Positions 4,140 to 6,574 of a stretch of DNA of 40,592 bases are shown here, piece after piece (the stretch's first letter is position 1; every line of letters starts with the position of its first letter). The position numbers and the translations under genes are program-made. The notes beneath the pieces are model-generated. The model saw only the letters and a program-made list of their open reading frames with translations, was not told the DNA's origin and did not search any database. This stretch comes from Acidobacteriota bacterium (GTDB lineage Bacteria; Acidobacteriota; Terriglobia; Acidiferrales; UBA7541). The stretch covers positions 25,811 to 66,402 of the forward strand of contig QHYK01000096.1 of NCBI GenBank assembly GCA_003224085.1, written 5' to 3'.

Positions 4140-4609
4140 CCGCCAAGGGGATCGCACGCTTCTTTCCGCGTGGTGGTCGGCGCCAACGGAAATGTGTACG
4201 GCACTGCCTCCTATAGCGGGGTTGCCAATGAATCGGGCACGGCGTTCCAGTTGACCCCACCGGCGGTTGCAGGCGGCTCTTGGACATGCGCCGTGATTCA
4301 CACTTTTAGGGGGGCACGGATGGAGCGAGTCCGGCGTCGACACCGCTCTTCGACCTGAGTGGCAACTTGTACGCTACGACCTGGAACGGCGGCACCGGGT
4401 CGTGCTACCAGGGCTGCGGCACGGTGTTCAAGCTGGCCCCACCCTCGAAAGGCAACTCTTGGACCGAGACCGTGCTCGCCAGCCTGGCGAACAGCGGACA
4501 AAGCCCCAATGCCTCCATGGTGGTCTTCCGGAACGGTCTGCTGTACGGTACAACGCTTTACCTCGGCGCCGCGAACCTTGGCTCGGTATTCACATTGGTT
4601 CCTTGACGA
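4140..4609 (+). pseudogene. GloVer-type tandem-repeat protein fragment, frameshifted
   Basis: Two frames together encode repeats of the extracellular GloVer type. The first has GNVYGTASYSG and GTAFQLTPP; the second has GNLYATTWNGGT, GTVFKLAPPS, GLLYGTTLYLG and GSVFTLVP before a TGA at 4607-4609. They join if the G6 run at 4309-4314 is read as G7, giving HTFRGGTDGASPAS. Intact family members are several hundred residues with a signal peptide and many repeats. Here only a C-terminal piece remains, with no N-terminus or ribosome site, so it is a remnant of a secreted beta-propeller-like protein. The right edge abuts the structured RNA-like region. Confidence 0.7.
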
Positions 4610-4610
4610 C

Positions 4611-4645
4611 TCCCCACGCCCAAGCGGCGGGGGATTCTTCGGAGC
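4611..4645 (+). repeat. GC-rich hairpin related to the 3' hairpin of the adjacent RNA-like element
   Basis: CCCCACGCC and GGCGGGGG pair across a short CAAGC loop and are followed by ATTCTTCGG. The same design (CCCC, A, YGCC, AAG loop, GGCGGGG, then T-rich) recurs at 4842-4865. Such paired hairpins are typical of ends of IS200/IS605 and ISC-type elements. It lies immediately after the GloVer fragment stop and could be a transposon-end remnant or part of the RNA. Confidence 0.45.
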
Positions 4646-4679
4646 TACTATGCAGCCTAAGCCGCACATCTCACGACGA

Positions 4680-4866
4680 TGTTTCCTGCTTCGCAGGCGC
4701 GTGCCTGGACTCGCGTCCAGGTCTTACCGCGTCTCCACAGGCTGACCGCGCGTCCCTCGGCGTCCCGACAGAACCGCTTGGTTTTTGCGGATCCCATCGA
4801 GAGCTGGCGCTTATCACAAAATTTCGTCCGGAGCCTTATATCCCCATGCCTAAGGGCGGGGGCTTT
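4680..4866 (+). ncRNA. Candidate orphan IscB-type omega RNA (HEARO-like structured RNA)
   Basis: The interval has no protein-coding character but is dense in perfect stems: CCTGC/GCAGG (4685-4697), CCTGGAC/GTCCAGG with a TCGC loop (4704-4721), CCGC/GCGG around a T-rich loop (4774-4790), and CCCCATGCC/GGCGGGGG near the 3' end (4842-4862). Conserved-looking linkers include CCACAGGCTGACCGC, CGACAGAACCGC and CCGGAGCCTTATATCCCC. From memory of the family, this order resembles the HEARO/omega RNA found upstream of iscB, which guides a Cas9-ancestor nuclease with a short guide at its 5' end. No iscB or tnpB gene follows; the 3' end meets the stop codon of the deacylase gene. The family assignment is recognition, not alignment. 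Confidence 0.55.
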
Positions 4867-6574
4867 ACGGCTCCATTTGGTAACCGGGACCGCGGAGGAC
4901 TCTTCCAGGTCTCGCGCCTGTCATTTTGCCCTGATCTATGACGGGAACGCCGTTGACCAGCACGTAGTCCATTCCTTGGGAAAGCTGATTGGGATTGCCG
5001 AATGTGGCGAGGTCGCGGATCGTGGCGGGATCGAAGATGGTGACGTCCGCCCACATCCCCACGCGAAGCACGCCGCGGCCTTCCAGGCGCAACCGCTGCG
5101 CGGGAAGCGCGGAGAACTTGCGAATGGCATCCGCCAGAGTGAGCTTGTGCTCTTCGCGGACGTACTTGCGCAGGATGCGCGGGAAAGTGCCGTAGGCGCG
5201 AGGATGCGCGTGCTCCCTGCCGAGAATTCCTTCTGGCGAAACGCCCGAAGAATCGTTATCAATAGATACCCAAGGCTGTTGAAGCCCTAGGACCACATCG
5301 GGGTCGTACATGCCCTGAACAGCGACGCCGGTCGCAGCCTCATCTTCGATGAGAAAATCGAAGATCGTGTCGATGGGATCCTTGTTCCAAAGCTTGGCGA
5401 CTTCGGCCATCGTTTTTCCCTGGAGCGGCAGAAGCTTCAGATTTTGCACCGAGCCGATGAGGATCGATTCGGGACCCGTGATCTGCTGCCATTCATTTTC
5501 CCAATCATCGGAAGCCGTGAGCATGTCCTTGCGGATGCGTTCGCGGGCGGCAGGATCGTTCAAGCGCGCGAGCAGCTTCGCGGTGCCTCCGTCATGCGCC
5601 CAGGGCGGAATGAAAGCGGAAAGTCCGTTGCCCCACGCCGTGTAAGCGTAAGTGTCTGCGGCGATGTCCACGCCTTGCGCGCGGGCCGCTTCAATCTTGG
5701 CGACGGCTTCGGGCATGCGCCCGAACGACGGTTTGCCAGCAACTTTGAAATGCCAGATTTCCACCGGGATTTGCGCCTCGCGGGCGATGCGAATCACTTC
5801 GTCGAGCGATTGGAGAATGGCGGTGCTCTCGCTGCGCATGTGCGTGGCATAGATGCCGCCGTAGTGTGACGCCTCCGAGGCGAGCGCGATCAACTCCTCG
5901 GTTTTGGCGTAGGGCGCGGGCGGATATTCAAGAGAGGTGGACACGCCCACCGCGCCGTCCAGCATTGCCTGGCGAACGAGTTGCTTCATCTGGTCGAGCT
6001 GCGCGGGTGTGGGCTGAACGTCGTCATCGCCGAGGACCATTCGCCGGACCGTAGTTGCGCCGACGTAATCGGCGACGTTGATGCCGATTCCCTGTTTTTC
6101 GAGGCGCGCGAAGTATTGGCGGAACGTCTGCCAATCGGGTTGAATGCCAAGAAGCGCGAACTGTCTTTTGCCCGCACGGCGAATCCCGTCGTTGAGCGGC
6201 GCGACGGATTCGCCCTCCCCGGTAATCTCCGTTGTGATGCCTTGATAGATTTTCGACGGCAGGCGCGGATCAACAAGAATCGTCAGCTCGGACTGGCCAA
6301 GCATGTCAATGAAGCCCGGCGCGACGATTTGGCCATGCGCTTCCATGGTGCGCGTGCGAGTTGCGTTCGCGAGATTGCCTATCGCTGCAATTTTTCCGCC
6401 GCGAATGCCGATGTCACCCGAATACCAGGGCGAGCCTGTGCCGTCAATGATTCGGCCATGCATGATCACGATGTCGAAGGGCGCGGATTGGGCCCCGATG
6501 CGCGGTGGGATTAGCAACGCAGAAAGAAACGCCAGAAAAACAAACCTTCGTCGCGTCGTTGCGGGTTGGGTCAT
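4865..6574 (-). CDS. N-acyl-D-amino-acid deacylase / D-aminoacylase family amidohydrolase, exported
   Basis: A 569-residue amidohydrolase with a basic N-terminus and hydrophobic signal segment (residues 8-29, cleavage near GAQS). Family motifs include VIMHGRIIDGTGSPWYSGDIGIRGGK, THMRSE (244-249), WHFKVAG (274-280), DIAADTYAYTAWG (303-315) and the C-terminal HAHPRAYGTFPRILRKYVREE. Known members hydrolyse N-acyl-D-amino acids with bound zinc. The usual metal site GFIDxHxH is replaced by GFIDMLGQSE (87-96), so the canonical HxH pair is absent and metal use may differ. The ATG at 6574 overlaps the potC stop as ATGA, making this the translationally coupled last gene of the transporter operon. It probably releases the amine or amino acid that the ABC system imports. 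The exact substrate is inferred only. Confidence 0.85.
   Translation of the reverse strand: MTQPATTRRRFVFLAFLSALLIPPRIGAQSAPFDIVIMHGRIIDGTGSPWYSGDIGIRGGKIAAIGNLANATRTRTMEAHGQIVAPGFIDMLGQSELTILVDPRLPSKIYQGITTEITGEGESVAPLNDGIRRAGKRQFALLGIQPDWQTFRQYFARLEKQGIGINVADYVGATTVRRMVLGDDDVQPTPAQLDQMKQLVRQAMLDGAVGVSTSLEYPPAPYAKTEELIALASEASHYGGIYATHMRSESTAILQSLDEVIRIAREAQIPVEIWHFKVAGKPSFGRMPEAVAKIEAARAQGVDIAADTYAYTAWGNGLSAFIPPWAHDGGTAKLLARLNDPAARERIRKDMLTASDDWENEWQQITGPESILIGSVQNLKLLPLQGKTMAEVAKLWNKDPIDTIFDFLIEDEAATGVAVQGMYDPDVVLGLQQPWVSIDNDSSGVSPEGILGREHAHPRAYGTFPRILRKYVREEHKLTLADAIRKFSALPAQRLRLEGRGVLRVGMWADVTIFDPATIRDLATFGNPNQLSQGMDYVLVNGVPVIDQGKMTGARPGRVLRGPGYQMEP

Follow-up and report, generated by a model that had tools for sequence, protein, structure and literature searches.

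The window, the whole 40,592-nt stretch that was analysed (contig QHYK01000096.1 of an Acidobacteriota bacterium, assembly GCA_003224085.1), contains at 4603-4879 on the minus strand a short element that overlaps the end of an amidohydrolase-family gene on one side and a relic of a GloVer-repeat protein gene on the other. It is very probably a miniature, non-autonomous, internally deleted IS608-type IS200/IS605 element. Along the minus strand it is laid out as a left end (LE), a short tnpB relic and a 163-nt omega RNA that reaches the right end (RE). The features of the locus are the following.

4310-4606, plus strand: relic of a GloVer-repeat protein, truncated at the 5' end and terminating with the TGA of the RE (TIGR03803, E 1.5e-15; frame)
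4583-4602, minus strand: predicted guide, 20 nt directly 3' of the RE and outside the element (position by analogy with TnpB omega RNA; PMC10278001, excerpt)
4603-4879, minus strand: whole mini-element from LE to RE, 277 bp, CAAATGG...GTCGTCAA (bounds from alignment with C45, C114 and C147)
4603-4765, minus strand: TnpB-type omega RNA scaffold including the RE (cmsearch, 127.6 bits, E 4.6e-33)
4603-4606, minus strand: TCAA, right cleavage site as in IS608 (sequence of right ends; IS608 value from PMC5934647, excerpt)
4611-4634, minus strand: subterminal RE hairpin (MFE fold)
4634-4637, minus strand: GAAT, at the base of the RE hairpin and identical to the right guide sequence of IS608 (sequence; PMC5934647, excerpt)
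4674-4742, minus strand: relic of tnpB codons ~395-417 within the RNA (tblastn, 70%; frame broken by indels in the alignment)
4762-4827, minus strand: middle segment, 66 nt, between LE and RNA (local alignment and alignment with the long miniature C43)
4828-4879, minus strand: LE, hairpin at ~4842-4862 (nhmmer LE profile, of which the window LE is itself a member; second match of the omega-RNA model at 4842-4862, E 0.061)
4863-4866, minus strand: AAAG, adjoining the LE hairpin on its 5' side and identical to the left guide sequence of IS608 (sequence; PMC5934647, excerpt)
4865-6574, minus strand: amidohydrolase-family gene, last five codons CAA ATG GAG CCG TAA within the LE (family searches and comparison with relatives)
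4880-4883, minus strand: TTAC, target and expected TAM, outside the element (left-end comparison within the genome)

Ends, insertion site and predicted guide

Alignment of the window copy (C91 of its genome, G000) with the dispersed sister miniatures C45, C114 and C147, each of which has its own flanks, revealed that similarity stops at identical points and that the flanking sequences are unrelated. In the MFE fold, the RE hairpin is followed by 8 nt up to the 3' end of the omega RNA scaffold. IS608 of Helicobacter pylori has the cleavage sites TTAC (CL) and TCAA (CR) and the guide sequences AAAG (GL) and GAAT (GR) (PMC5934647, excerpt). All four signals were found at the window element, and its cleavage and guide tetranucleotides are identical to those of IS608, which, according to the same excerpt, carries tnpA and tnpB, whereas the window element carries neither. 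Among the loci fetched from the window's genome, TTAC precedes 13 of 14 full left ends and TTAT the remaining one (C147). Likewise, 21 of 22 right ends finish in TCAA, one being truncated, and these 21 lead into 21 different flanks. Read from the insertion sites, the TAM would be TTAC.

The RNA-proximal half of the middle segment resembles tnpB codons 282-292 near RuvC-II (local score 17; 2 of 500 mononucleotide shuffles scored as high), and the segment can be aligned further with C43, a longer miniature with tnpB from codon 271 after its left end. The remainder would perhaps represent tnpB codons from about 269. These matches are suggestive, without being proof, of a derivation of the segment from tnpB. 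An auto-inhibitory mRNA stretch near RuvC-II has been described for AmaTnpB (PMC10278001, section 12). As a counterpart of this stretch the middle segment was dropped, its duplex with the RNA being matched by 34 of 200 mononucleotide shuffles; the GACGCTCGG motif near RuvC-II, considered for the same idea, is present in 4 of the 10 tnpB sequences listed.

At the insertion site, the LE provides the last four residues and the stop codon of the amidohydrolase gene, and the LE hairpin follows directly. In 11 of 11 relatives, compared at one locus each (further matches, e.g., in G015 and G029, lie outside the comparison), this gene is uninterrupted and matches up to the TAC or TAT at the element boundary, followed by two codons of its own and a stop. 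The genus search with 4200-5500 as query gave matches in 28 of 36 genomes, the window's own included, some of them through the repeat only or through weak similarity; the 4200-4602 part of the query had no match in this search. The flank on the RE side is unlike the sequence after the site in the 11 relatives read, the empty-site check thus covering the LE side, and the present guide may therefore not match the original site. Elsewhere in the window, a 275-aa open frame lies at 443-1270 on the minus strand, with no NCBIfam match and no Pfam match above cut-off.

The letters of the predicted guide are GGAACCAATGTG. For this guide, no second TTAC plus 12-nt site with fewer than two mismatches was found in the genome, and eight sites, including the RE boundary of the element itself, had two mismatches, against two in a backwards control. 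The lack of a near match is expected if the target is the empty site, yet it reveals no target either; the search is not informative.

Related copies and structure of the RNA

A search of the genome (6.8 Mb in 159 contigs) with the repeat at 4600-4880 returned 37 matches, some over the full length and many over an outer part only. Long elements with both outer parts, such as C151 and C21, have tnpB between them, on the opposite strand; read on the minus strand, the repeat shows homology to tnpB elements at their 3' end. Of the 35 tnpB matches in the genome, a single one (C21) spans the query from end to end with no stop; the others are either broken or interrupted by the end of a contig, as in C77 and C105. 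C21 encodes a complete TnpB of 424 aa, which scores 287.7 bits with guided_TnpB of NCBIfam (cut-off 100) and matches Cas12f1-like_TNB, OrfB_IS605 and HTH_OrfB_IS605 of Pfam. The Y1 transposase family PF01797 has 10 matches in the genome, the best of them an open frame of 146 aa in C17 beside a tnpB piece. The window element, with both ends and a TnpB guide RNA and without protein genes, probably uses the transposase and TnpB of its relatives in the same bacterium. Taken together, it is likely that it represents an orphan TnpB-guide-RNA mini-transposon to which TnpA and TnpB are supplied in trans.

Other arrangements of the same parts occur in the genome. In C138 (G000:C138:9682-9954; L006 1360-1636), a miniature is split into an RNA/right-end part and a left-end part that lie on opposite strands, 18 nt apart. 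A solo palindrome of about 70 nt (L027 1474-1538; G000:C131, near 82922-82956) consists of a left end and its inverse (CCAAATGGAGCC...GGCTCCATTTGG) after TTA, and neither RNA nor right end was detected at this locus. Also in G000:C131, a 384-aa open frame (L033 612-1766, minus strand) joins what resembles a different transposase to tnpB from about codon 268, with a breakpoint near that of C43.

The omega-RNA covariance model was built from 20 rows, i.e., copies with at least about 50 tnpB codons and no orphan miniatures; several rows have a broken tnpB or one cut by a contig end. The window copy scores 127.6 bits, as compared to 186.2 for C21 and 194.3 for C151, both of which are within the model. 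In the window's genome, 24 matches to the model were obtained, some of them partial copies (150 of 1933 first-look candidates were scored). The sequence-only reading had described a structured non-coding interval at 4680-4866. Its stems, CCTGC/GCAGG, CCTGGAC/GTCCAGG, CCGC/GCGG and the CCCC..GGGG hairpins, are indeed present, and being palindromic they read the same on both strands; its bounds were off, the element extending over 4603-4879 and the RNA over 4603-4765. It was also right that no nuclease gene adjoins the RNA, the locus having only tnpB relics. The gene said to abut on the other strand is the amidohydrolase gene, which shares the strand of the RNA and runs into it.

The consensus structure from 33 aligned copies comprises 42 pairs, 40 of which are kept in the window copy; the structure is derived from the same alignment, and the pair counts lean towards it. 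Paired cells amount to 97.1% in these copies; shuffling lowers this share to 93.7 +/- 0.3%, and sliding the partners lowers it to 37-48%. The covariation score is 0.210 versus 0.145 +/- 0.006 for shuffles (none of 500 as high), and cells changed on both sides number 74 versus 31.4. Two of five covariation measures are not above shuffles, namely double-change pairs (8 versus 8.5) and further pair types (22 versus 27). Covariation is clearest in the stem that reads CCTGGAC/GTCCAGG in orphans and CCTAAAC/GTTTAGG in copies such as C21. The predicted structure contains 137 G-U cells versus 17 A-C cells, an excess that points to the minus strand, although this is also the strand on which the structure was predicted. 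The alignment leaves out shortened, rearranged or extra copies, among them C147, C138, C65, C144, C92, C157, C122, C119, C51 and C148 of G000; C178 and C303 of G030; C133, C188, C177 and C270 of G041; C122 of G015; C148, C132 and C259 of G017; and C148 and C13 of G019, the last two of which were added for the tree.

Folding energy gave z values of -1.36 for 4660-4880 (plus strand), -1.66 (minus) and -1.46 (plus) for 4603-4766, and -3.26 for the longer 4600-4880, folded on the minus strand only. Folding energy alone is too weak as evidence, and the comparison of copies was therefore used instead. At the level of single copies, the window copy differs from its sister C114 in two paired columns, both differences breaking a pair (17-171 and 21-26), C45 breaks pair 14-174, and C147 has lost part of the RNA. 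From these comparisons, the RNA lineage looks constrained, with the window copy starting to decay, and the two recent pair-breaking changes may have weakened its RNA.

In TnpB omega RNAs, the 3' end coincides with the right end of the element, and the guide comes from the sequence beyond it (PMC10278001, excerpt). The reRNAs of ISDra2 (PMC8612924) and of AmaTnpB with 59 orthologues (PMC10278001), in the excerpts of both sources, end at the RE with a subterminal hairpin no more than about 10 nt from the 3' end, as does the window RNA, and they have the guide outside the element and require a motif 5' of the target, a layout that is predicted to be the same here. The ISDra2 and AmaTnpB RNAs are encoded together with tnpB according to these excerpts, whereas the window RNA has no tnpB and TnpB would act on it in trans.

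Orphan elements in related genomes

Orphan miniatures were found in three genomes. The window family, in G000, consists of C91, C45, C114 and C147 together with C138, which is rearranged. In G030, a different middle segment is found in two miniatures, C371 and C402 (the left end of C402 being altered), and C178 is a deleted derivative. The third amplified family, in G019, comprises C178, C148 and C13; C92 and C105 of this genome are single miniatures. Counted from the right end, similarity to tnpB elements extends over 159-161 nt in C91, C45 and C114, 165-166 nt in G030, about 154-157 nt in the G019 family, 196-220 nt in C92 of G019 and 146 nt in C105 of G019, where the junction at 146 nt means that one strand of helix 1 is lost. 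The amplified miniatures of the three genomes thus retain about 154-166 nt from the RE; longer tnpB parts are retained in C43 and C6.

A tree of 35 rows groups the orphans of G000 with those of G030 in one supported clade (98/93) and places the G019 family in a second (99/94). On this tree, four changes have to be assumed for the orphan label, and none of 500 shuffles gave so few (mean 8.9). If only well-supported branches are counted, a single change is enough, so a single orphan origin is possible and the junctions are not counted as fully independent. Between C114 and G030-C371, 5 of 84 paired columns differ, compared with 17 of 97 unpaired ones, and all five changed pairs remain paired, each through a one-sided change (through G-U) with no double compensation. 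Between C114 and C21, two doubly changed pairs were found.

Among 95 genomes of the order (matches in 7), there was no tnpB-bearing element with an RNA more than 82% similar to that of the window over the full length; pieces in G030 are closer but shorter (C303, 85%; C178, 96%). A separate search of relatives gave matches in 10 of 101. The middle segments of the G030 and G019 miniatures align with the C21 element no better than shuffles do (154 of 300 and 87 of 300 as high, respectively). The pattern scan of named genomes, in which records near the window's genome may be absent, returned 49 stretches, and 27 omega-model matches lie in 26 of them. All of these 26 are titled Acidobacteria, 24 of them with the label gp2, one with gp1 (L221) and one without such a label (L208).

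The G019 family (L229, L230 and L129, for C148, C13 and C178, respectively) has a TTGACA-like box between left end and RNA, similar to a promoter-like stretch that longer elements carry after their left end. This box may drive the RNA directly.

A broader reading of these lineages is that orphan TnpB omega RNAs constitute a long-lived transposon class, in which both proteins would have been shed more than once and shrinkage would have halted near the 5' boundary of the RNA through selection for TnpB use in trans. This reading is regarded as fairly unlikely.

Possible function in trans and competing explanations

According to a published proposal, TnpB cleaves the donor joint once this has been resealed, adjacent to the target motif, and the element is then reinstated by repair (PMC8612924, excerpt). 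By extension, the mini-element would hitchhike twice, on TnpA for its movement and on TnpB for its retention, with both proteins acting in trans. The RNA would be transcribed from the minus strand, probably by read-through of the amidohydrolase gene; no sigma-70-like promoter was detected at 4500-5000 by a scan that is blind to promoters of other types. A TnpB made elsewhere would then bind the orphan RNA, with the flank 3' of the RE serving as guide. On excision by TnpA, the TnpB-RNA complex would cut the resealed TTAC-plus-guide site and repair from the sister chromosome would restore the copy, making the mini-element a parasite of both proteins of its relatives. It is a real possibility, falling somewhat short of an even chance, that the RNA of the window's lineage works or recently worked with TnpB in trans; that the RNA of the window copy does so today is unlikely.

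The main competing explanation, which has close to an even chance, is that of passive debris: TnpA acting in trans would have mobilised the element earlier in its history, and the omega-RNA part would have been kept only as it overlaps the right end needed by TnpA, with no RNA function. Ends-only elements are said to be moved often by transposase in trans (PMC7290912, section 3.8). Consistent with debris are the single complete tnpB among 35 matches, the pair-breaking changes in the window copy and C45, and C147, which has its own flanks although part of its RNA is gone. The differences between the two orphan lineages argue against it, being more frequent at unpaired columns and leaving 5 of 5 changed pairs paired. 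All five kept changes are one-sided, however, and for this reason trans function and the reading as a long-lived class were considered less probable, and debris more probable. The length kept by the amplified miniatures in three genomes also speaks against debris, as it exceeds the roughly 50-60 nt of end sequence that TnpA is expected to require.

It is very unlikely that the insertion has been co-opted as the 3' end of the amidohydrolase transcript, i.e., as stop codon, terminator or 3' stabiliser. The LE-derived residues and stop codon with the hairpin directly behind them would fit this role, but just one site at 4500-5000 resembles an intrinsic terminator and it lies on the plus strand, and the absence of the insertion from the site in 11 relatives gives no sign of long conservation.

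The sequence-only reading had proposed an orphan IscB-type omega RNA (HEARO). IscB RNAs have the guide at the 5' end, and stand-alone IscB omega RNAs are guide RNAs without an adjacent nuclease gene. The window RNA resembles these in being structured and GC-rich and in having no nuclease gene alongside; it differs in guide position, and its RNA family is unrelated. The proposal thus holds in so far as a transposon guide RNA that lacks its nuclease gene and may be served in trans is present, and was mistaken as to family, strand and guide, which was placed 5' of the first stems and would instead lie 3' of the RNA on the minus strand, from 4602 downwards. Rfam searches of 4400-5100 up to E 10 on either strand gave snoU54 (E 7.7) as sole match and none to HEARO, and across the window tRNA was the only family to reach its gathering score. 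HEARO (RF02033) had no match in the whole genome, a result that is weak taken alone because 14 of 14 controls were silent as well; the IscB family NF040563 gave three partial matches below cut-off in the genome, and 9 of 14 controls also had sub-cut-off matches. These nulls, together with the minus-strand homology to tnpB elements at their 3' end and the omega-model match, contradict an identity as HEARO, the probability of which is practically negligible.

The layout of an orphan TnpB-guide-RNA mini-transposon has a published precedent. A PATE-like element of Halanaerobium hydrogeniformans, described in 2020, comprises about 271 nt with an LE hairpin, the last 58 nt of tnpB and a 160-nt RE, and has no tnpA (PMC7290912). 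Its layout is the same as that of the window element, which is a further example of it. The PATE-like element is a single copy, and the excerpt of PMC7290912 does not mention omega RNA, covariation or lineage evidence, whereas the window kind occurs in amplified lineages. What may be added here is that such miniatures form amplified lineages in several genomes, keeping the RNA while the sequence drifts.

If orphan RNAs work, one TnpB could be steered by many guides scattered over the genome, like one Cas protein by a CRISPR array. They would show how a guide RNA may become separated from its nuclease, which would be one step of the route presumed to lead from TnpB to Cas12, and the miniatures would mark the minimal RNA that TnpB needs, since several have been trimmed to near-equal length. 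If the reading as a long-lived class is true, these elements would be double parasites, with one TnpB gene served by about two dozen RNA loci with different guides.
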